From contig NZ_FRCB01000004.1 of the NCBI RefSeq assembly GCF_900142765.1, positions 62,001-126,000 on the forward strand: DNA of 64,000 nucleotides, in the 5' to 3' direction. The notes below the pieces were generated by a model. It searched no databases. It saw only the letters and a program-made list of their open reading frames with translations, and was not told where the DNA came from. Every line of letters starts with the position of its first letter. Position 1 is the first letter of the stretch. Shown here in pieces: positions 3,484-16,938 of the stretch. The position numbers were made by a program, and so were the translations under genes. This DNA comes from Roseovarius litoreus. GTDB lineage: Bacteria > Pseudomonadota > Alphaproteobacteria > Rhodobacterales > Rhodobacteraceae.

Positions 3484-4068
3484 CTATTTGTTCAGCTTCG
3501 ACAACTTTTCCTGCAGGTCCGCCAGTTGCTTGCGGATCTCGTCCAGATCCTCGCCCTTGTCCGGCGTGGGCTGCTCGCTGGGGCTGTCCTCGGTCTTGGC
3601 CGCCGGTCCGCCCTTCAGGCTCCCCAGCCCCCCCATGCCTCCGGTCATCGCCTTCATGAAGGCTTCCTGCTGCGCGCGCATCGCCTCCATGCCGGGCATG
3701 TTCGCCAGCGGATTGGCCTTGGTCATGTTCTCCATCATCGCCGATTGCCCCTCGCGCAGCATCTCGAAGCTCGCGGCAAGGAATTCCGGCACGACGCTGG
3801 TGGCCTGCGTGGTATAGCTGCGCACCAGATCGGTCAGCACGCTGATCGGCAGCACGCTTTCGCCCTTGCTTTCGTGCTCGGCGACGATCTGCAGCAGATA
3901 TTGCCGCGTCAGGTCATCCCCGGATTTCAAATCGATGATCTGAACTTCGCGGCCCTCGCGGATGAACTCCGCGATATCCTCCAGCGTCACGTAATCCGAA
4001 GTCTCGGTATTATAGAGCCGCCGACTGGCGTAGCGTTTGATAAGCAAAGGCTTGTCTGTCTCGGCCAC
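3484..4068 (-). CDS. phaR: Polyhydroxyalkanoate synthesis repressor PhaR
   Basis: The 194-residue protein starts with IKRYASRRLYNTETSDYVTLEDIAE, read in pieces: RYASRRLYNT is the hallmark of the PHB-accumulation regulator DNA-binding domain, at about residues 11-70. A second domain (about 75-115) and a Met/Gln/Gly-rich linker follow, and the C-terminus (about 165-194) is a predicted coiled coil (LDEIRKQLADLQEKLSKLNK). PhaR represses phasin genes until nascent PHA granules titrate it away. It sits downstream of phaP, and TGC-rich half-sites (GCGCTGCAGC near 4093-4102) just upstream could mediate autoregulation. Confidence 0.95.
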   Translation of the reverse strand: MAETDKPLLIKRYASRRLYNTETSDYVTLEDIAEFIREGREVQIIDLKSGDDLTRQYLLQIVAEHESKGESVLPISVLTDLVRSYTTQATSVVPEFLAASFEMLREGQSAMMENMTKANPLANMPGMEAMRAQQEAFMKAMTGGMGGLGSLKGGPAAKTEDSPSEQPTPDKGEDLDEIRKQLADLQEKLSKLNK

Positions 4069-4124
4069 GGATCGGTCCTCCCGATGTTTTCAGCGCTGCA
4101 GCAAACCTTATGCGACCGCAGAAC

Positions 4125-4157
4125 AAAAAGAAAGGGCGAGCCTCACTGGGCTCACCC
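4125..4157 (-). terminator. Rho-independent terminator of phaP
   Basis: Read on the minus strand, GGGTGAGCC and GGCTCGCCC form a 9-bp stem (one G-T pair) around a 6-base loop, followed by TTTCTTTTT. It lies 58 bp after the phaP stop codon and should separate phaP from phaR. Confidence 0.85.
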
Positions 4158-4214
4158 TTATCATACAGACCCGTTCAGGGAGGGAGGATCGGGTCGTATG
4201 TTCCGTCCGCGCGC

Positions 4215-4661
4215 TTACTTGGCGGCGGTGGCTTTCTTGGCAGCCGATGTCACGTCATCGGTGGCTTTCTTGACGGCTTTGGCTGCATCTTCCTGCAGGT
4301 CCTTGCCGGCGGCCATCATCAGTTCGACGGTGTCCATCTGAACCTTCTTGGCGATCTCGGCGAAGGCAGCCATGTTCTCGGCGGCCACTTCGGCATTGGC
4401 CGATGCGAAATCGGTCATCGCCTTGGCGTAATCGGCAGGCTCGGCTTTCGCCTTGGTCATGTCCGACATCTTCGCCAGGGTCTCTTTGGTCCACTTGCTG
4501 GAAATCTCGGCCGACTTTTCGGCAGCTTCCAGAGCGACACCCGACAGCTTCTCGCTCAGAGCGGCCTGGTTCTTGAAGGCATCTTCCATCGCTTTGGTGT
4601 CGACGGGGAATGCGCCCATGATGTCTTTCATCACGGTGCTGAAATCTTGTGTTTTAGCCAT
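4215..4661 (-). CDS. phaP: Phasin family protein (PHA granule coat)
   Basis: The 148-residue protein is almost entirely helical and rich in Ala, Lys and Glu, with amphipathic repeats and no signal peptide. It ends in an Ala/Lys-rich tail (KKATDDVTSAAKKATAAK), as phasins do. Phasins coat PHA granules and limit their size. The ATG at 4661 is chosen because GAGGAC lies 5-7 bases upstream; the longer frame to 4718 would run into the promoter. phaC lies upstream on the same strand. The predicted promoter contains a perfect CTGC-N3-GCAG site, so repression by PhaR is likely. Confidence 0.92.
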   Translation of the reverse strand: MAKTQDFSTVMKDIMGAFPVDTKAMEDAFKNQAALSEKLSGVALEAAEKSAEISSKWTKETLAKMSDMTKAKAEPADYAKAMTDFASANAEVAAENMAAFAEIAKKVQMDTVELMMAAGKDLQEDAAKAVKKATDDVTSAAKKATAAK

Positions 4662-4720
4662 GGTTTCGTCCTCAGGTCTGGATTGGAACGGGAACACCCC
4701 GTTTCTCTGCAACTGCACAC

Positions 4721-4749
4721 AATATGCATGCTGCAGTGCAGAAAATCAA
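4721..4749 (-). promoter_or_regulatory. Predicted sigma-70 promoter of phaP
   Basis: On the minus strand TTGATT (4749-4744) and CATATT (4726-4721) are separated by 17 bases, each matching the sigma-70 consensus at 4 of 6 positions. The candidate PhaR operator at 4731-4741 fills most of the spacer, which would suit repression by steric exclusion. Confidence 0.5.
4731..4741. promoter_or_regulatory. Candidate PhaR operator 1 (CTGC-AGT-GCAG)
   Basis: The site CTGCAGTGCAG is a perfect match to the CTGC-N3/4-GCAG pattern reported for PhaR of Rhodobacter and Paracoccus. It lies between the predicted -35 and -10 boxes of phaP. Confidence 0.75.
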
Positions 4750-4759
4750 CCCCTTATTG

Positions 4760-4770
4760 CTGCACTGCAG
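4760..4770. promoter_or_regulatory. Candidate PhaR operator 2 (CTGC-ACT-GCAG)
   Basis: CTGCACTGCAG is the exact reverse complement of operator 1 and begins 29 bp from it. The inverted match extends into the flanks (GCAGCATTTTCT against AGAAAAT), so the two sites form one larger inverted repeat between phaC and phaP. Confidence 0.75.
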
Positions 4771-4793
4771 CATTTTCTGAGAACGCAACAAAA

Positions 4794-6602
4794 TCAAAGC
4801 TTTGCCTTCACCCGCACATAGGTTCCCGGCGCCGGTGCCAACGGGGGATGCTCCGAATCGCCGGGTTCCCTAGCGTCAACCTTTTTGCCCGAGCGCGTGC
4901 TCAGCCAGGCGTCCCACCGGGGCCACCACGAGCCTTCGTGGAAACTTGCCCCCTCCATCCAGTCCGCGGCCTGACCGCTCAGATCGTCATTGGTGTAATG
5001 GCCGTATTTCTTCTTGGTGGGCGGGTTCACGATCCCCGCGATATGGCCCGATTGCGACACAAGGAAGGTCTTGTCCTTTGAGCCGACCTTCTGAAACCCG
5101 CGATAACAATCCTTCCACGGCGCGATATGGTCGGTCTCGCAGGTCACCGACATCACCGGCACCTTCACATCGCTGATCCGCAGCGTCTCGCCGCAGATCT
5201 CGTAGCCCTCGTTGACGAATTCGTTCTTCTGACACAGCCCGCGCAGATACTCGACCGTCATCCGCCCCGGCAGGTTCGCCCCGTCCCCGTTCCAATACAG
5301 CAGATCGAAGGCCGGTGGCGCCTCGCCCATCATGTATTTGCGCACCGCAGGCTGATAGATCAGATCGTTGGACCGCAGGAAAGACATGGTCCGCGACATG
5401 ATGAACGACCGCAACACACCCTTTTCCGCGACCTCTTTCTCGATCCCGGTCACGAAATCATCCTGCAGGAACGGCGTGAACTCTCCCTGCTCCGAAAAAT
5501 CGGTCAGCGCGGTGAAGAAAGTGGCGGATTTCACCGATTTGTCGCCGCGCCTGGCCATCAGCGCCAGCGTCAGATGCAGCGTGGTGCCCGCGATGCAATA
5601 GCCCACGGCATTCACCTGTTTCGTGCCACAGATCGCCTTGGCCTCGCGGATCGCGGTCAGGAACCCCTCCTCGATGTAATCCTCCATACCCACATCGGCA
5701 TAGCTCGCATCGGGATTGATCCAGCTGACCACGAACAGCGTGTAGCCCTGCTCGGTGATCCACTTGATCAGGCTGTTTTCCGGCTTCAGGTCCAGCACGT
5801 AATACTTGTTGATCCAGGGCGGGAAGATCACCAGCGGGATCTCGTGCACCTTCTCGGTCGCGGGCGCATACTGGATGATCTCCATCATCGCATTGCGATA
5901 GACCACCTCACCGGGGGTCGTGGCGATGTTGCCGCCCAGCTCGAACGCACTTTCATCCGCCAGCCGCACCAGCATCTCGCCATTGTTGGCCTCCAGATCG
6001 GCCACCAGGTTCTCCAGCCCCCGCACAAGGCTTTCGCCCTCGGTTTCCACCGCCTTTTCCAGCGCATCGGGATTGGTGCCCAGAAAATTCGTGGGGCTCA
6101 TCATGTCCACGATCTGCCGCGCGAAATAGTTGAGCCGTTTCTTTTCCACCGGATCGAGATCATCGACCTCCTGCACCGCCTCCTCGATGGCGCGGGCATT
6201 GAGCGCATATTGATGCTTGATGTAGTGAAAGAAGGGATGCGTGTTCCACAGCGGGTTGGCGAAGCGCTTGTCGCCCTGCAGCGGATCATCCCCCGCCTCG
6301 TCTGGGGCGTGCGGCCTTTGGCCCTGCACCAGTTGCTGCTGCGCCTCCATGAAGTGGCGCACCGACCGGCCCCAATATTCCAGCTGCCGCTCGTAAAGCT
6401 TGCCCGGATTTTCCACCATCTCCGCCCAATAGGACGCCGCCGCCTTAGCGAACAGCTCCTGTGAGGGCGAATCGAGCGTGGGATTCGCCGGGTTTCGCGC
6501 CGAAAGCGCCGCGATGAGACGCTGTGACAACTCTTCGACCCGTGCGAGATTCTCGGCCATCTTGTCGAGATTTTCGCCAGCGGTCTCCTCTTTCGTTGTC
6601 AT
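4794..6602 (-). CDS. phaC: Class I poly(3-hydroxyalkanoate) synthase
   Basis: The 602-residue enzyme polymerises (R)-3-hydroxyacyl-CoA into PHA on granule surfaces in the cytoplasm. The lipase-like box GYCIAG carries the catalytic Cys336, with Asp491 in CETDHIAPW and His520 in SQSGHIAGIVNPP completing the triad. The N-terminal 200 residues match the PhaC N-terminal domain (NPLWNTHPFFHYIKHQY). The length is normal for class I. The start has AAGGA 10 bases upstream. phaZ is divergent, and a CTGC-N3-GCAG site lies in the shared intergenic region. Confidence 0.98.
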   Translation of the reverse strand: MTTKEETAGENLDKMAENLARVEELSQRLIAALSARNPANPTLDSPSQELFAKAAASYWAEMVENPGKLYERQLEYWGRSVRHFMEAQQQLVQGQRPHAPDEAGDDPLQGDKRFANPLWNTHPFFHYIKHQYALNARAIEEAVQEVDDLDPVEKKRLNYFARQIVDMMSPTNFLGTNPDALEKAVETEGESLVRGLENLVADLEANNGEMLVRLADESAFELGGNIATTPGEVVYRNAMMEIIQYAPATEKVHEIPLVIFPPWINKYYVLDLKPENSLIKWITEQGYTLFVVSWINPDASYADVGMEDYIEEGFLTAIREAKAICGTKQVNAVGYCIAGTTLHLTLALMARRGDKSVKSATFFTALTDFSEQGEFTPFLQDDFVTGIEKEVAEKGVLRSFIMSRTMSFLRSNDLIYQPAVRKYMMGEAPPAFDLLYWNGDGANLPGRMTVEYLRGLCQKNEFVNEGYEICGETLRISDVKVPVMSVTCETDHIAPWKDCYRGFQKVGSKDKTFLVSQSGHIAGIVNPPTKKKYGHYTNDDLSGQAADWMEGASFHEGSWWPRWDAWLSTRSGKKVDAREPGDSEHPPLAPAPGTYVRVKAKL

Positions 6603-6625
6603 ATGAATGGATTCCTTTTAGTTTT

Positions 6626-6636
6626 CTGCTATGCAG
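6626..6636. promoter_or_regulatory. Candidate PhaR operator 3 (CTGC-TAT-GCAG) between phaC and phaZ
   Basis: CTGCTATGCAG is a third perfect CTGC-N3-GCAG site. It lies 24-34 bp upstream of the phaC start and about 72-82 bp upstream of the divergent phaZ start, so it could control either gene. Confidence 0.7.
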
Positions 6637-6707
6637 CATAGCGTCGGCTGTTCGGAGGGGACAGTGCGGCGAATGGAACCGGCACGCCCCGGCACAAGGA
6701 GACGACG

Positions 6708-8006
6708 ATGCGGTACATGATCACCTACGATTGGATGGAAACCCTCCGAAATACAAATCAATGGTTGGGCGCAACCGCACTTTCCTTCGCATCCTACCCA
6801 ATTTTCGCGATGACGCCAAACCCTGCGCTGCAATGGATGGCCGCTTGGGGCGAAGTGACCGAACGGACCTTCCAGCGCATCGTGACCAAGCCCGACTGGG
6901 GAATCGAATCGATCACCGGCGAGGATGGGCGCGACCACCTCATCAATGTCGAAACCGTCATCGAACGCCCCTTCGGCAACCTGATCCACTTCGACGTTCT
7001 TGGCCGCGGCGAGATGGATCGCCGGGTGCTGCTGGTGGCCCCGATGTCGGGCCACTACGCCACGCTGCTGCGCTCCACGGTGCGCTCGCTGCTGCCCGAT
7101 TGCGAGGTCTATGTCACCGACTGGCACAATGCCCGCGACATTCCCGTGTCCGCCGGCAAGTTCGATGTCGAGGATTACACCCTTTATCTCAGCGAATTCA
7201 TGCGTGAACTGGGCAGCGACCTGCATGTGATCGCCGTCTGTCAGCCCGCCCCCCTCACGCTTGCCGCCACCGCCCTCCTGGCCGAGGTCGATCCCGACGC
7301 GCAGCCGCGCTCGCTGATCCTGATCGGCGGGCCGATCAACCCCGACGCCACCCCCACCGACGTGACCGATTTCGGCCGTCGCGTGACCATGGGCCAGCTG
7401 GAAGAAACGATGATCCAGCGCGTCGGCTTCAAGTACAAGGGCGTGGGCCGCCTCGTCTATCCCGGCCTGCTGCAACTGAGCTCCTTCATGTCGATGAATG
7501 CCGAACGCCATGGCAAGGCCTTCCTCGACCAGATCCAGCGCGTCAGCCGCGGCGAAGCCAGCGATCACGACCCGCACAACAAGTTCTATGACGAATATCT
7601 CGCCGTGATGGACATGCCCGCGGAATTCTACCTCTCGACCGTCGAACGCATCTTCAAGGGGCTGGAAATCGCCCACAACGCCTTCACCGTCGAAGGCCGC
7701 CATGTCGATATCGGCGCGATCACCAAGGTCGCGGTGATGACCGTTGAAGGCGCCAAGGACGACATTTCCGCCCCCGGCCAGTGCATCGCGGCGCTCGATC
7801 TGCTGACCGGCCTGCCCGATGACCGCAAGGCCAGCCATCTCGAACCCGAGGCCGGCCATTACGGCATCTTCGCCGGGCGCAGCTGGCGCAACAACATCCG
7901 GCCCCTCGTGCTGGATTTCATCGACGCCAATTCCGAAGAGCCGGCCAAGCGCAACCGCACCTCTCCGCGCAAGAAGAAAGCCGCGAAAAAGACCGAAGCC
8001 GCCTGA
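6708..8006 (+). CDS. phaZ: Intracellular polyhydroxyalkanoate depolymerase
   Basis: This 432-residue alpha/beta-fold protein matches the intracellular PhaZ family, which uses a cysteine nucleophile (here in VCQPAPL) instead of the serine of secreted depolymerases. DWHNARDIPVSAG and PEAGHYGIFAGRSW are other family signatures; the latter contains the likely catalytic His. It releases 3-hydroxyalkanoates from native granules. The last 25 residues are Lys/Arg-rich (SPRKKKAAKK), as in some granule- or nucleic-acid-contacting proteins. AAGGAGACGACG precedes the ATG. It is transcribed divergently from phaC. Confidence 0.96.
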   Translation: MRYMITYDWMETLRNTNQWLGATALSFASYPIFAMTPNPALQWMAAWGEVTERTFQRIVTKPDWGIESITGEDGRDHLINVETVIERPFGNLIHFDVLGRGEMDRRVLLVAPMSGHYATLLRSTVRSLLPDCEVYVTDWHNARDIPVSAGKFDVEDYTLYLSEFMRELGSDLHVIAVCQPAPLTLAATALLAEVDPDAQPRSLILIGGPINPDATPTDVTDFGRRVTMGQLEETMIQRVGFKYKGVGRLVYPGLLQLSSFMSMNAERHGKAFLDQIQRVSRGEASDHDPHNKFYDEYLAVMDMPAEFYLSTVERIFKGLEIAHNAFTVEGRHVDIGAITKVAVMTVEGAKDDISAPGQCIAALDLLTGLPDDRKASHLEPEAGHYGIFAGRSWRNNIRPLVLDFIDANSEEPAKRNRTSPRKKKAAKKTEAA

Positions 8007-11115: not shown

Positions 11116-13062
11116 ATGGCCCAGATTTCCCTTACATTTCCTGATGGTAACAGCCGCTCTTATGATGCTGGCGTCACTGCGGCCGATGTCGCCGCCGATA
11201 TCTCGACCTCTCTTGCCAAAAAGGCGATTTCGGCGACATTGGATGGCCAGCACTGGGATCTGCAATGGCCAATCCAGCAGGATTCCTCCATCGCGATCAA
11301 TACGATGAAGGACGAAGCTCAGGCGCTCGAACTGATCCGTCACGACCTTGCCCATATCATGGCCCGCGCGGTTCAGGAGCTTTGGCCCGATGTGAAAGTC
11401 ACCATCGGTCCAGTGATCGAGAACGGATGGTATTACGACTTCGACCGCAAGGACCCCTTCACACCCGAAGACCTTGGCGTGATCGAGAAAAAGATGAAGG
11501 AAATCATCAACCTGCGTGATCCCGTCCGTACCGAGATCTGGGACCGCGCCCGCGCCGTCAAGCACTATGAGGACAGCGGCGAACCCTTCAAGGTCGAACT
11601 GATCGAGGCCATTCCCGGCACCGAACCCCTGCGCATGTACTGGCACGGCCACTGGCAAGACCTCTGCCGCGGCCCCCACCTTCAGAACACCGGCCAAGTC
11701 CCTGCAGACGCTTTCAAATTGATGTCCGTGGCCGGCGCCTATTGGCGCGGCGATTCCAATCGCCAGATGTTGCAGCGCATCTATGGCGTGGCCTTTCTCA
11801 ATCGCGAAAAACTCAAGGATTACCTCACCTTCCTCGAAGAAGCTGAGAAGCGGGACCACCGCAAGCTGGGGCGCGAGATGGATCTCTTCCACATGCAGGA
11901 AGAAGCCCCCGGCCAGATCTTCTGGCACCCCAACGGCTGGACGATCTACACCACCCTGCAAGATTACATGCGCCGCCAACAACGCCGCGGCGGCTATGTC
12001 GAGGTAAACACACCACAAGTTGTCGACCGCAAGCTTTGGGAAGCGTCGGGGCACTGGGACAAATACCAGGAACACATGTTCATCGTCGAAGTCGACGAAG
12101 ATCACGCCCGCGAGAAATCCATCAATGCTCTCAAGCCGATGAACTGCCCTTGCCATGTGCAGATCTTCAATCGCGGGCTGAAATCCTACCGCGATCTGCC
12201 CTTGCGCATGGCGGAATTCGGCAGCTGCAACCGCTACGAACCTTCAGGCGCATTGCACGGCATCATGCGGGTGCGCGGCTTCACTCAGGATGACGCACAT
12301 ATCTTCTGCCGTGAAGATCAGATCGAGGCGGAAACCAAGAAATTCATTGGTTTTTTGTCTGAAATTTACCGCGATCTTGGCTTTGCGGACTTCAAGGTAA
12401 AATTTTCGGATCGCCCGGAAAAACGCGCCGGCAGCGACGACGTCTGGGACAAATCGGAAAGCGCCCTGAAGGCCGCAACAGCCGCCGCCGGAGCCGACTT
12501 CGAACTGAACCCCGGAGAAGGCGCATTCTATGGCCCGAAGCTGGAATTCGTGTTGACCGACGCAATCGGACGGGACTGGCAATGCGGCACCCTGCAGGTG
12601 GATTTCGTGTTGCCAGAGCGGCTGGACGCCACCTATATCGCCGAGGATGGCGCCAAGCACCGACCCGTCATGCTGCACCGCGCGGTTCTGGGGAGTTTCG
12701 AGCGTTTCATCGGCATTCTGATCGAAGAACATGCCGGCAAACTGCCCTTCTGGATGGCGCCGCGCCAAGTGGTTGTGGCCTCGATCGTATCCGAGGCGAA
12801 CGCCTATGTTCAGGATGTGGTCGCCCGTCTGGTCGCCGCAGGCGTCCGGGCCGAAGCCGATATCCGCAACGAGAAGATCAATTACAAGGTCCGTGAACAT
12901 TCCGTCGGCAAGGTGCCCGTTATCCTGGCCTGCGGCATGAAGGAGGTCGAGGACGGCACCGTGTCGCTGCGCCGCCTGGGTGAGAAGCAGAGCACGGTTC
13001 AGCCTCTCGCGGATGTCACAGAGGCGTTGAAACGCGAAGCGACCCCCCCGGATCTTCTGTAA
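11116..13062 (+). CDS. thrS: Threonyl-tRNA synthetase
   Basis: The 648-residue enzyme charges tRNA-Thr in the cytoplasm. It has an N-terminal TGS domain (residues 1-62), the editing domain with HDLAH (His76, His80), the class II catalytic core with the zinc-binding MNCPCH segment and class II motif 2 in the [15 protein letters not shown] region, and a C-terminal anticodon-binding domain from about residue 550. The ATG at 11116 is preceded by GAGGAGC; the longer frame to 11083 lacks a ribosome binding site. Full length and intact. A terminator lies 85 bp downstream. Confidence 0.99.
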
Positions 13063-13147
13063 CAATCGCACGCATGGTGGGGCAAAACAGCGTCCCAAAC
13101 CATGACGCCCGGACAGAAAATCCCGAAAAATCCCTAGTTTTCAATGG

Positions 13148-13180
13148 GCGGCCCCATGCGGGCCGCTCACTTATTTTGAC
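13148..13180 (+). terminator. Hairpin terminator after thrS
   Basis: GCGGCCC and GGGCCGC form a perfect 7-bp stem around CATGC, followed by TCACTTATTTTG. It lies between thrS and the bufferin-type operon and should isolate that operon from thrS transcription. Confidence 0.65.
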
Positions 13181-13313
13181 GCATCCGTGTCTGACGTGCT
13201 CGTGAATGGTTGTGCGAGGCCAGATCAGCTTAACGTCAAATTGTCGCAGCGTTTGCACCGATCCGATGCGCCGATGCCGCGACATGCCATGCAACCCACT
13301 AGGGAGACACGTA

Positions 13314-13616
13314 ATGTCGAAATCCATGAAGACACTTGCCATTGCCGGCGCCATGACCGCCGCTCTGGCTGCACACACCACACCTGCCGCTGCTGAAACC
13401 AAAGAGAAATGCTACGGCGTATCTCTTGCAGGCCAGAATGACTGCAAGGCCGGCGCCGGCACGACCTGTGCCGGAAGCTCGACCGCTGACTATCAGGGCA
13501 ACGCCTGGACCCTGGTCGACAAGGGCACCTGCACCGAGATCGAGCTGCCCGCGATGGCAGACGGCACAGAGCGCAAAGGGTCTCTGGAACCGCTCGAGCG
13601 CGATCTGCCCGCCTGA
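13314..13616 (+). CDS. bufA: Bufferin-type RiPP precursor (BufA1/DUF2282 family)
   Basis: The 100-residue protein has a Sec signal peptide (hydrophobic at about 8-20, cleavage near AAA-E at 27-28) and a short mature domain with four cysteines (33, 44, 52, 73) in [13 protein letters not shown] and GTTCAGSS contexts. These are diagnostic of DUF2282/BufA1. Bufferins are copper-binding peptides in which an MNIO enzyme converts cysteines to thio-oxazoles, unusually on a Sec-exported precursor. The ATG at 13314 has AGGGAGA upstream. bufB, bufC and a DoxX gene follow on the same strand, the known gene order for this family. The copper role is inferred from the family. Confidence 0.9.
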
Positions 13617-13692
13617 TCGGCACATCATGCAGGGATACGTGGGCGCACGCCCCGCGTATCCCTCAGTTGCACCCACCAGACCGAGACCTGTC

Positions 13693-14550
13693 ATGCTTGA
13701 TACCTCCGGCCACCCCATGCATCTGCCCACAGCCCCCGGCGTCGGCTACAAGTCCCAGCATTTTCAAGCCATCATGGATGATCCCGCCCCGGTGGCATGG
13801 CTTGAAATCCATGCCGAAAACTACATGGGCGATGGCGGCCGACCGCTGGCGCAACTCAGACATCTTGCCGAACGGTTTCCGATCTCGGTGCATGGTGTCG
13901 GACTGAGCATCGGCGGCGAGGGGCGGCTGGATCCCGAACATCTGGCACGGCTCAAGGCACTGTGCGGATGGTTGCAACCCGCCAGCTTTTCCGAACATCT
14001 GGCGTGGTCCACCCATGACAGCCACTTCATGAACGATCTGCTGCCGCTGCCTTACACCGCCACCACCCTTGCGCGGGTGACCGATCACATCGACGAGCTG
14101 CAAGAAGCGCTTGGCCACAGGATGCTTCTGGAAAACCCCTCGAGCTATCTCGCCTTTGCCGAAAGCACCTTCTCCGAGACGGATTTCCTGACCGAGATCG
14201 CGCGCCGCACCGGCTGTGGCCTGCTGCTGGATGTGAACAACGTCTTCGTTTCCGCCACCAATCTTGCGCTTGATCCCCGGGCGTATATCGATGCGTTCCC
14301 CCTGGCGCAGGTGGGCGAAATCCACCTCGGCGGCCATGACGAGGATGAGGACGACCACGGCGCACCGCTGCTGATCGACAGCCATGGGCGCGATGTGGCC
14401 GATCCGGTTTGGGCGCTTCTGGACCATACCCTTCAAAGATCAGGTCCACGCCCGCTTCTGATCGAATGGGACGCCAATGTGCCGGACTGGCCCATGCTTG
14501 CGCAAGAGGCGCGCCGCGCCGCCCGCGCCCTTGAAAAGGTGGCGGTATGA
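13693..14550 (+). CDS. bufB: MNIO-family (DUF692) multinuclear iron enzyme, bufferin maturase BufB
   Basis: The 285-residue TIM-barrel protein is a DUF692/MNIO member. Likely metal ligands are visible: His67 (SVHGVG), His102 (SEHLAW), Glu147 (LLENPS), Asp180 (LLLDVNN), His211 and His215 (EIHLGGH) and Glu258 (LIEWD). It would oxidise cysteines of BufA to thio-oxazoles with BufC. I place the start at the ATG at 13693, which gives the usual family length; an ATG at 13627 would add 22 atypical residues. The gap from bufA is 76 bp. The 3' end overlaps bufC by 4 bp (ATGA). Confidence 0.93.
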
Positions 14551-15302
14551 CGATCAGTCAGACATGCTTTCGCGATGCACTTTTCGATCGCGCGAAACCG
14601 GTGCCGATGGGCCTGCAGGATGGACAAGGCCTGCCTGCCGGGCGCCGATTCAACGTCTATCGCAACAACGTTGCGGTTTCCCTGACCGAAGCGCTGGAGC
14701 TTGGGTTTCCTGCGGTCAAATCGCTGATTGGAAAAGAGAATTTCCGGAAAGTATCTGGCCTTTTCCTGCGCCAAACACCGCCGTCGGCGCCCATGATGAT
14801 GCTTTATGGCAAGGAATTTCCGGACTTCCTCGAGAGCTTCGCGCCCTTGTCGGATATCCGGTATCTTGGGGACGTCGCCCGCCTCGAGCAAGCGCAGCGC
14901 GAGGCGTATCACGCCGCCGACGCACAAGCCCTTGCCCCCGGGGCCCTGGCGCGGCTCCAGCCCGACACACTGGCGCAATCCCGGTTCCGGCTGGCTCCTG
15001 CGATACGGTTGATCCGCTCGGTCTGGCCTGTTCATGACATCTGGCGGTTCGCGACCATGGATGGCGCACCGAAACCCACTGCTCAGGCGCAAGATGTTCT
15101 GGTCACGCGGCCCGAATATGATCCCGAATTGCTTGTCCTGCCTCAGGGCGGGGCGGCTTTTGTGGCCGCAATTCTGGCGGGGGCCACACTGACCGAAGCC
15201 TGCGAGGCAGGCGAAATCAATGCCGAGGCTTTCGATCTTGCCGCAATGCTTGGCCTGCTGTTGCAGAGCGGCGCGATAATCGCCGTGGAACCCGAGGTTT
15301 GA
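14547..15302 (+). CDS. bufC: DUF2063-family MNIO partner protein BufC
   Basis: The 251-residue product has the N-terminal DUF2063 domain (about residues 8-95, with [23 protein letters not shown]). The C-terminal part is helical and less conserved. Proteins of this type act as the precursor-recruiting partner of MNIO enzymes in bufferin biosynthesis, so the older label of putative DNA-binding protein is probably misleading. The start overlaps the bufB stop codon (ATGA), implying translational coupling. The next gene starts 4 bp after its stop. Confidence 0.9.
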
Positions 15303-15305
15303 GAG

Positions 15306-15854
15306 ATGAACATCAGCGCAGCCTACACCACCATCACCAACCCTCTGTCCCGGGCGGACTGGCTTTTGTCCGTCATGGCCAGATTTCTGTTTGCGGCACT
15401 TTTCCTGATGTATTTCTGGGTGTCCGGCCTGACCAAGCTTGGCGATGGCGTGCTTGGGATCTTTTCGCCATCTGTCGGCGCCTATGCCCAGATCTTTCCC
15501 CGGGCGATGGAGGCCGTGGGCTATGATGCAAGCCAGTTGAGCCTGTTTCATACAATGGTCGTTCTGGCAGGAACCTGGGCCGAGTTCGTTCTGCCCCTGA
15601 TGATCGTGATCGGTCTTCTGACCCGGCTGGCAGCCCTTGGGATGATCGGTTTTGTCGTGCTGCAAACCCTCACCGACCTTTACGGGCATGGCGCGATCAG
15701 CGAAGTGGGGACGGTTGGCGCCTGGTTCGACAAGGCCCCGGATTCGGTGATCCTGGATCAACGGGCTTTGTGGGTGTTCCTGTTGGTGACGCTTATGGTG
15801 AAGGGTGCGGGGCCTTTGTCGCTGGACCGTGTTCTGTTTGGCGACAGGGCATGA
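15306..15854 (+). CDS. DoxX-family membrane protein of the bufferin operon
   Basis: The 182-residue protein has four predicted membrane helices (about residues 20-42, 75-100, 103-125 and 140-165) and the DoxX-like pattern FLFAALFLMYFWVSGLTKLGDG. DoxX proteins commonly close bufABC/gigABC operons, where a role in redox handling or export has been suggested but not settled. The start lies 4 bp after the bufC stop codon with GAGAG upstream. It is the last gene of the operon; the convergent ArsC-like gene begins its 3' end 43 bp later. Confidence 0.88.
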   Translation: MNISAAYTTITNPLSRADWLLSVMARFLFAALFLMYFWVSGLTKLGDGVLGIFSPSVGAYAQIFPRAMEAVGYDASQLSLFHTMVVLAGTWAEFVLPLMIVIGLLTRLAALGMIGFVVLQTLTDLYGHGAISEVGTVGAWFDKAPDSVILDQRALWVFLLVTLMVKGAGPLSLDRVLFGDRA

Positions 15855-15896
15855 GCCGGGCCGGGCGCATGAGACGTGACGCGACCCGAAAAGGTA

Positions 15897-16211
15897 TCAG
15901 CCCAACAACGTCTTTTGCACATCCCTGCCCCAGCCCAGATACAGCTTGCCGCCGGCATCGATCAGGGGGCGCTTCATCAGCGTCGGATAATCTTCAAGCA
16001 ATTCCAACGGGTTGCGCTGACGTTCGGCATCATCCAGCTGCCGCCATGTGGTCGAGCGGGTATTGAGCAACGCCTCGCCAAAGGTGGCATGAGCGGATTT
16101 CAGCAGATCGGCCGGCACACCTTCGTGCCGGACATCCACGAAGCGGGCGTCCGCCAAGGATTTCAAAGCCTTGCGGCACGTATCGCAGGTTTTCAAGCCA
16201 TACAGGATCAT
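15897..16211 (-). CDS. ArsC/Spx-family protein (thioredoxin-like)
   Basis: The 104-residue protein has the ArsC/Spx-like thioredoxin fold with YGLKTCDTCRKAL (Cys9 and Cys12) and the usual NPLELLEDYPTLMKRPL segment that carries the family's KRP signature. True glutaredoxin-linked arsenate reductases use one Cys in a similar place, while this CxxC form matches the YffB group, whose role is uncertain. The ATG at 16211 gives the normal family start; ATGs further upstream (16223, 16262) are possible. It is divergent from the cold-shock gene and convergent with the bufferin operon. Confidence 0.85.
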   Translation of the reverse strand: MILYGLKTCDTCRKALKSLADARFVDVRHEGVPADLLKSAHATFGEALLNTRSTTWRQLDDAERQRNPLELLEDYPTLMKRPLIDAGGKLYLGWGRDVQKTLLG

Positions 16212-16397
16212 CGCAACCCCCATGTTTTGTGCCTGTTTAACGGGCATTTGGACGCAGGTCACGTGTGTTTTGCTTGCATTTTACATGACCCGTGCAATCA
16301 TCTTCCGCGTGGCGTTTGGTGTTGCTGTTGCGATTTTTCCCAACGGTGGCAGGCAGATGCGGCGGGAAGATGAAGCGACTCAGCAAGGAGAGACGGA

Positions 16398-16604
16398 ATG
16401 CCTACAGGCACCGTTAAGTGGTTTAATACGACCAAGGGTTACGGGTTTATCGCACCGGATGAAGGCGGTAAGGACGTGTTCGTTCACATTTCGGCGGTCG
16501 AGAGATCGGGGCTCACGGGGCTCGCGGACAACCAGAAAGTCGGCTACGAATTGCAGGATGGCCGCGATGGCCGGCAAATGGCGGCTGACCTCAAGCTATT
16601 GTAA
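16398..16604 (+). CDS. Cold-shock protein (CspA family)
   Basis: The 68-residue single cold-shock domain has RNP1 (KGYGFI, residues 13-18) and RNP2 (VFVHI, 27-31) on a VKWFN framework. It binds single-stranded RNA and DNA. AAGGAGAG precedes the ATG. The gap of 186 bp to the divergent ArsC-like gene is long enough for the long 5' leader seen in many csp genes, though I could not identify a specific leader structure. There are many alphaproteobacterial paralogues, so I give no gene number. Confidence 0.95.
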   Translation: MPTGTVKWFNTTKGYGFIAPDEGGKDVFVHISAVERSGLTGLADNQKVGYELQDGRDGRQMAADLKLL

Positions 16605-16633
16605 TCCATAGCATTTCAGACACCAACACAAGC

Positions 16634-16660
16634 GGCGGCGCCGGCCAAGCGCCGCCCGTT
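16634..16660 (+). terminator. Possible hairpin terminator after the cold-shock gene
   Basis: GGCGGCGC and GCGCCGCC form a perfect 8-bp stem with a 7-base loop, 29 bp after the csp stop codon. Only CGTTTC follows, so the T-run is weak. Confidence 0.4.
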
Positions 16661-16668
16661 TCGCACTG

Positions 16669-16938
16669 TCAGAAACAGCCCTTCACACCTTCGGGGCAGG
16701 TGCGGGCGCGTTTCACCGTACGGTGCGAATAATGTTTGGCAACGGGGTGGCGCTTGGCCTGCTGATAGGTCTGGTGCTGATTGGGCACACCGCAGCAGAC
16801 GGCGCCGGCGACGGTGACCGGCTGCAACCCGGCGGGGCAGAAATTGTGTTTGGATTCAAAGGCATAGACCGGGGTTTGGGCCAATGCAGGGGCGGCCAGA
16901 CAGGCAAGACCTGCGGCAAGGGTCAGGGACAGACGCAT
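16669..16938 (-). CDS. Small cysteine-rich secreted protein
   Basis: The 89-residue product has a clear signal peptide (hydrophobic at about 4-18, cleavage near ALA-Q at 20-21). The mature peptide has five cysteines: Cys34, the adjacent pair Cys48-Cys49, Cys81 and Cys87, plus a His/Lys-rich middle (HPVAKHYSHRTVKR). This suggests a periplasmic disulfide or metal-binding peptide, but I do not recognise a family. Repeat copy B lies about 105 bp upstream in the same orientation. It is convergent with the cold-shock gene. Confidence 0.7.
   Translation of the reverse strand: MRLSLTLAAGLACLAAPALAQTPVYAFESKHNFCPAGLQPVTVAGAVCCGVPNQHQTYQQAKRHPVAKHYSHRTVKRARTCPEGVKGCF

Follow-up and report, generated by a model that had tools for sequence, protein, structure and literature searches.

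The bufferin operon of Roseovarius litoreus is preceded by a conserved pair of palindromes that we interpret as a candidate promoter and switch element, and in the genomes surveyed here this element stands before the bufferin operon and hardly anywhere else. It offers a handle for naming the regulator across a family of marine bacteria and for testing copper as the real signal. Bufferins are described as copper-stress peptides, and to our knowledge metal sensing for them is known only in a few hosts. Thousands of bufferin clusters have been collected already and this cluster adds one to them; its control is the part that could matter. The candidate element is what is new, and our literature searches, which covered freely licensed papers and some of which were blunted by matches to "buffering", returned no description of it.

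Gene content and features of the operon

The stretch of DNA analysed, hereafter the window, comprises 64,000 nucleotides of the R. litoreus genome (G000; 3.93 Mb, 30 contigs), which contains a single match each to bufB and to DUF2282. To judge from its sequence, the gene cluster is an ordinary and well-supported Buf1 bufferin operon, complete and of known kind. The features of the operon and of the region between thrS and bufA are as follows.

13145-13169, + strand: terminator-like hairpin after thrS, abutting the candidate operator (10-pair stem, T-rich tail)
13167-13170, + strand: possible third half-site TCAC, 10 bp before palindrome 1 (T in 86% and C in 87% of 87 aligned upstream regions)
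13177-13190, + strand: putative operator palindrome 1, TGACGCATCCGTGT, ACG-N4-CGT (upstream-region comparison)
13192-13205, + strand: putative operator palindrome 2, TGACGTGCTCGTGA, ACG-N4-CGT, 15 bp downstream of the first (upstream-region comparison)
13207-13212, + strand: weak -35-like hexamer TGGTTG, 18 bp before the -10 (2/6 match to TTGACA)
13231-13236, + strand: predicted -10 hexamer TAACGT (TANNNT, at a conserved offset)
13314-13616, + strand: bufA, Buf1 (DUF2282) precursor, 100 aa, Cys 33/44/52/73
13693-14550, + strand: bufB, MNIO maturase, 285 aa
14547-15302, + strand: bufC, DUF2063 partner protein (PME type 1), 251 aa
15306-15854, + strand: doxX, DoxX-family membrane protein, 182 aa

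An earlier note on this DNA had read positions 13314-15854 as four co-directional genes in the order bufA-bufB-bufC-doxX, and both the coordinates and the strand agree with that reading. Its spacings were right for bufA and bufB (76 bp) and for the 4-bp overlap of bufB with bufC, while the gap between bufC and doxX is 3 bp (15303-15305) and not the 4 bp given. The precursor does contain exactly four cysteines, at positions 33, 44, 52, and 73. Two family searches that had been named as checks on the proposal both came out in its favor: BufA matches DUF2282 (PF10048) at 85.5 bits with a gathering score of 22.4, and BufB matches PF05114 (MbnB_TglH_ChrH) at 344 bits, above the gathering score. BufC was likewise assigned by Pfam to PF09836 (DUF2063; 80.2 bits, gathering score 27.2) and DoxX to PF07681 (29.3 bits, gathering score 23.6), and the NCBIfam model MNIO_BufB recognizes BufB at 372.7 bits, with a cut-off of 310. 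By eye, the N-terminus of BufA has the n- and h-region of a Sec-type signal ending in AAA at approximately residue 27. The length of BufC, 251 aa, falls in the range of PME type 1 proteins, the DUF2063 partners for which the relevant passage of PMC12452194 gives approximately 250-260 aa.

A shared chromosomal position behind thrS

Related loci were collected in one scan of named genomes, and comparisons were made on the best 80 of 211 loci. Within these best 80 of 211, the genes thrS, bufA, bufB, bufC, and doxX stand in line in 72 loci by script and in 74 after L086 and L099 were checked directly, and an antisense Spx/ArsC-like gene follows doxX in 57 of the 72 script-called loci. Individual loci vary: 2 bufA genes stand in tandem before bufB in Shimia biformata (L103, 5257-5974), the sequence of L064 breaks off in bufC, and no thrS was seen in L042, L046, L052, or L110, with the contig of L042 and L052 beginning at bufA.

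DUF2282 is found in 45 of the 84 genus genomes and in 106 of the 149 family genomes, the latter having been drawn one per genus. Of the 39 bufA-negative genus genomes, 30 were searched for thrS and 29 gave a match; at 20 of these 29 loci a Spx-like gene lies within 1.5 kb downstream without bufA, bufB, or bufC; the other 9 show neither in the stretch examined. Such a distribution fits a loss of the bufferin operon from a shared position. We regard the place behind thrS as a long-standing chromosomal slot for the operon.

Some further observations were made on these neighborhoods. One of the 20 loci (L214, genome G067) has a lone doxX between thrS and the Spx-like gene, apparently what a deletion of the bufferin operon left behind. 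In 11 of the 13 bufA-negative gaps that were inspected (L200-L224), the space from thrS to the Spx-like gene is taken up by an antisense ORF of 122-124 aa that by eye is hydrophobic, and crude clustering places a similar antisense ORF in 33 of the best 80 of 211 bufA-positive loci; the window is without such an ORF. Elsewhere in the window, positions 3484-8006 hold ORFs that by eye are phaR-, phasin-, phaC-, and phaZ-like and resemble a polyhydroxyalkanoate set.

A conserved tandem palindrome and a candidate promoter

The conserved block in the window is TGACGCATCCGTGTCTGACGTGCTCGTGA (13177-13205), in which two ACG-N4-CGT palindromes are set 15 bp apart, and its end lies 108 bp from the ATG of bufA. 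The block occurs once in the window, and none of 100 window shuffles contains the palindrome pair even when 2 mismatches are allowed. For comparison across loci, 109 upstream regions from L002-L112 were examined and 87 non-duplicate ones were retained, the remainder being duplicates, too short, without a start by script, or carrying more than 4 mismatches. The consensus of the 87 aligned regions reads TSACR-N4-YGTGA around both palindromes, with a T at 93% just after and, 10 bp upstream, a TSAC that may be a third half-site.

Downstream of the palindromes, the hexamer TANNNT occurs at one offset (52-54) in 63 of the 87 upstream regions, while shuffles averaged 7.3 and never exceeded 16. The corresponding -35 region agrees with TTGACA at 2-4 of 6 positions across the upstream regions and at 2 in the window, and a plain sigma-70 scan of 12400-16800 returned no promoter. 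Activated promoters combine a weak -35 with conserved sites immediately above it, and since both are present here, we infer that this is one. The conserved element would then be an activator site, with the direction of its effect, activation versus repression, judged from its position only.

These results bear on two claims of the earlier note. It had expected the operon to have its own metal- or stress-responsive promoter and had found none; a strong candidate region is now apparent at 13167-13236 on the + strand, which is predicted to have promoter activity, and the response to metal or stress remains a prediction about it. The note had also placed a terminator between thrS and the operon. 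A hairpin is indeed present at 13145-13169 on the + strand, but by itself it is weak evidence, as the window has 7 such sites where 4.3 are expected in shuffles.

Specificity of the element across genomes

A pattern built for the genus Roseovarius was found exactly in 37 of the 84 genus genomes, at one place in each, and its reversed-pattern control was found in 0. A sister pattern, fitted to other genera, was exact in 37 of the 149 family genomes, again at one place each and again with 0 for the reversed control; the window itself has no match to the sister pattern. The genus element lies on the same strand as DUF2282 and 166-245 bp before the domain in 37 of 37 cases, and the sister element does so at 152-191 bp in 36 of 37. 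In the one family exception (G219, locus L229), the exact sister element precedes an ORF that by eye is L,D-transpeptidase-like, and there is no DUF2282 match in that genome; this occurrence may be due to chance.

Eight of the 45 bufA-bearing genus genomes are missing the exact element. Operons behind thrS in G064, G086, and G100 have it at 1-2 mismatches, G004 has a more diverged form, and G032 is a fragment. Laboratory strains that carry both operon and element include R. pacificus DSM 29589 (L053), with an exact copy, and R. nubinhibens ISM (L098), with one mismatch. A looser pattern applied to the R. litoreus genome gave 30 further places with 2 mismatches and none with 1, compared with 8 for the reversed control, which has a different base-step make-up and leaves the excess of 30 over 8 unaccounted for. 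Weaker sites of the element may therefore be present elsewhere in this genome, as far as pattern matching can indicate.

Candidate regulators

Searches of R. litoreus and the 84 genus genomes for sigF/NrsF and for CopR/CusR-class proteins named no regulator for the element. Clustering of neighboring ORFs in the best 80 of 211 loci recovered thrS, the Spx/ArsC-like gene, a cold-shock gene, and others, with no obvious regulator among them; the gene calls were crude and this is thin evidence.

A copper response regulator of the CopR/CusR type is a possible identity for the regulator, though a doubtful one. Copper is the known ligand of Buf1, and the site of CopR and CusR, given in part of PMC12428095 as TGACA-N4-TGTCA, has inverted half-sites around four bases, a geometry like that of TSACR-N4-YGTGA. 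The last bases differ, and here there are two palindromes 15 bp apart. In a survey with approximately 30 candidates scored per genome, TIGR01387 matches above 200 bits were present in 13 of 45 bufA-positive and 8 of 39 bufA-negative genus genomes, proportions that show no clear co-occurrence of this class of regulator with bufA, and 0 of 84 genomes had a match over the curated cut-off. Among the 30 best regulator loci listed, the palindrome TSACR-N4-YGTSA was absent within 400 bp upstream, with one occurrence at 631 bp. A weaker, universal OmpR-type regulator (approximately 176 bits) may be a candidate as well. By eye, the best TIGR01387 match in R. litoreus adjoins a PepSY-like ORF and a sensor kinase ORF.

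It is considerably less probable that the operon is driven by an ECF sigma factor paired with an anti-sigma factor of the NrsF type, as in the sigF regulon of Caulobacter. There, according to passages of PMC3511200, sigF controls two paralogous operons at GTAACC-N16-CGAA, one of which ends in a DoxX gene (CC3254-3257, by inference buf1), and sigma and anti-sigma genes in Buf1 clusters are reported in parts of PMC12452194. In our data, however, NrsF (PF06532) has no match in R. litoreus and is above the cut-off in 0 of the 84 genus genomes. A single genome of the 84, itself bufA-negative, has a match at E <= 0.001 that stays under the cut-off, while the Caulobacter positive control was detected. 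GTAACC-N16-CGAA was not found between thrS and bufA with up to 2 mismatches, and no sigma-factor-like gene was seen, by eye and on crude gene calls, among the conserved cluster genes of the best 80 of 211 loci.

A further point in favor of a sigma factor comes from within the genus, where an accessory bufferin operon does carry one. Operons away from thrS are present in G090 and G011 and as a second copy in G064, where the best upstream match to the element has 4-7 mismatches and BufB is 59% identical; for the operon of G102, the 3.9 kb of upstream sequence contains no thrS and the element match has 5 mismatches. After the G090 operon (L261:5959-7483) come an ECF sigma factor (PF04542 at 46.1 bits, PF08281 at 43.1) and a zf-HC2 protein (34.4 bits), the latter probably the anti-sigma factor of the neighboring ECF protein. 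The second G064 operon (L259) is followed by a DUF3179 protein (266.8 bits) and a second DoxX-like protein with a weak DoxX match (19.5 bits, below the cut-off). By eye, the accessory operon of L265 resembles that of L259 in having both of these proteins encoded after its first DoxX.

Within the genus, the operons behind thrS carry the element and the accessory ones are without it, the four accessory cases being few. We lean, if only slightly, toward the view that the bufferin operon of this Roseobacter-type family is no longer under ECF-sigma control as known in Caulobacter, and that a nearly single-target activator reads two TSACR-N4-YGTGA sites, or perhaps two and a half, immediately above a weak sigma-70 promoter. 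The peptide system would then be wired to two kinds of control within one genus, since the element goes with operons in the thrS slot and is missing from the accessory operons, of which one or more comes with an ECF sigma factor and a zinc-finger protein of its own.

That the element is not a protein-binding site at all but a structured RNA, such as a leader or riboswitch, we consider very unlikely. The inverted repeats could fold, and two inner column pairs form base pairs more often than expected under independence (columns 21/22, 53 versus 40.6 expected; columns 5/8, 42 versus 34.2). The diagnostic pairs, however, are without covariation in the 81 distinct elements (columns 4/9, 67 versus 65.1; 19/24, 61 versus 59.9; 1/12, 14 versus 17.5), the predicted RNA fold is ordinary (z -1.13), and the element has no Rfam match. 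Because the conserved TANNNT lies downstream of it, the element should also not be transcribed from the candidate promoter.

Predicted maturation chemistry and the nature of the peptide

Among solved structures BufB has eight sequence relatives, the best of which is 3bww, while BufA, BufC, and DoxX have none at E 0.1. Alignment of BufB to these relatives places residues identical to 9 of the 9 iron ligands of TglH, as named in part of PMC10880893, at H67, H102, E147, D180, N183, H211, D229, H231, and E258. All nine are invariant across the best 80 of 211 related loci, as are BufA cysteines 33, 44, 52, and 73, with gaps set aside and at least 70 rows per column. According to the portion of PMC12452194 on Buf1, modification is limited to the central cysteines, and a disulphide joins the first and the last; for the present BufA this predicts Cys44 and Cys52 as the modified residues. 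The claim that the core cysteines become thio-oxazoles is on this family rule narrowed to these two residues and does not extend to all four. The chemistry, export, and copper binding expected of this BufA are carried over from what is said of the family in parts of PMC12452194 and PMC12668002.

The proposal of a Buf1-type bufferin operon holds in the Pfam, ligand, and cysteine comparisons and, for BufB, in the NCBIfam comparison; the scores of BufA, BufC, and DoxX under the cut-offs of narrower NCBIfam models count against it. An oxazolin (HvfA type) or a methanobactin is an extremely improbable alternative for the peptide, as the weak cross-matches of BufB, BufC, and DoxX to the HvfB, HvfC, HvfX, and MbnB models all fall below cut-off (BufC to HvfC at 48.9 bits, cut-off 142; DoxX to HvfX at 25 bits, cut-off 80), and BufA has the Buf1 signature DUF2282 at 85.5 bits, a Sec-type signal by eye, and no EGKCG repeat. 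BufA was also scored with the NCBIfam BufA2 model, at 22.8 bits and below its cut-off of 60.

Proposed mechanism and relation to known systems

The gene content and order, the conservation of ligands and cysteines, and the conserved element are direct observations, and the explanation that best covers them, which we hold with considerable confidence, is a Buf1 operon in the thrS slot with an activator at the palindromes, BufABC chemistry, periplasmic copper sequestration, and support from DoxX. The activator, for which a two-component response regulator or something similar is the likeliest candidate, would bind the palindromes at 13177-13205 above the weak promoter (-10 at 13231) and switch on bufABC-doxX in response to metal or envelope stress. 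BufA would be made with a Sec signal and presented by BufC to the iron enzyme BufB, which would convert Cys44 and Cys52 to thiooxazoles ahead of export. Once in the periplasm, the peptide would pair its Cys33 with Cys73 and sequester copper, with DoxX in a supporting role.

The closest likeness is to the Buf1 operon of Caulobacter vibrioides, which according to parts of PMC12452194 and PMC3511200 shares the four-Cys precursor with a Sec signal (putative in R. litoreus), the MNIO, the DUF2063 partner, DoxX, and the gene order. The R. litoreus operon differs in that neither NrsF nor a sigF-type site was found, a tandem-palindrome element lies upstream, and the precursor gene stands behind thrS and not beside sigF. 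The GIG operons of Cupriavidus metallidurans and Legionella pneumophila belong to the same type of gene cluster, being bufferin clusters in the account given in part of PMC12452194, and passages of PMC5413113 describe copper and gold induction of the L. pneumophila GIG promoter. That operon is on an integrative element whereas the one described here has a shared chromosomal position; the likeness is drawn from the genes. Captophorins such as fontiphorin are similar in that an MNIO and a partner install copper-binding thiooxazoles, but their precursors, as presented in part of PMC12668002, are of an EGKCG/Lys-Cys kind with many Lys-Cys motifs, whereas the precursor here is of the DUF2282 type.
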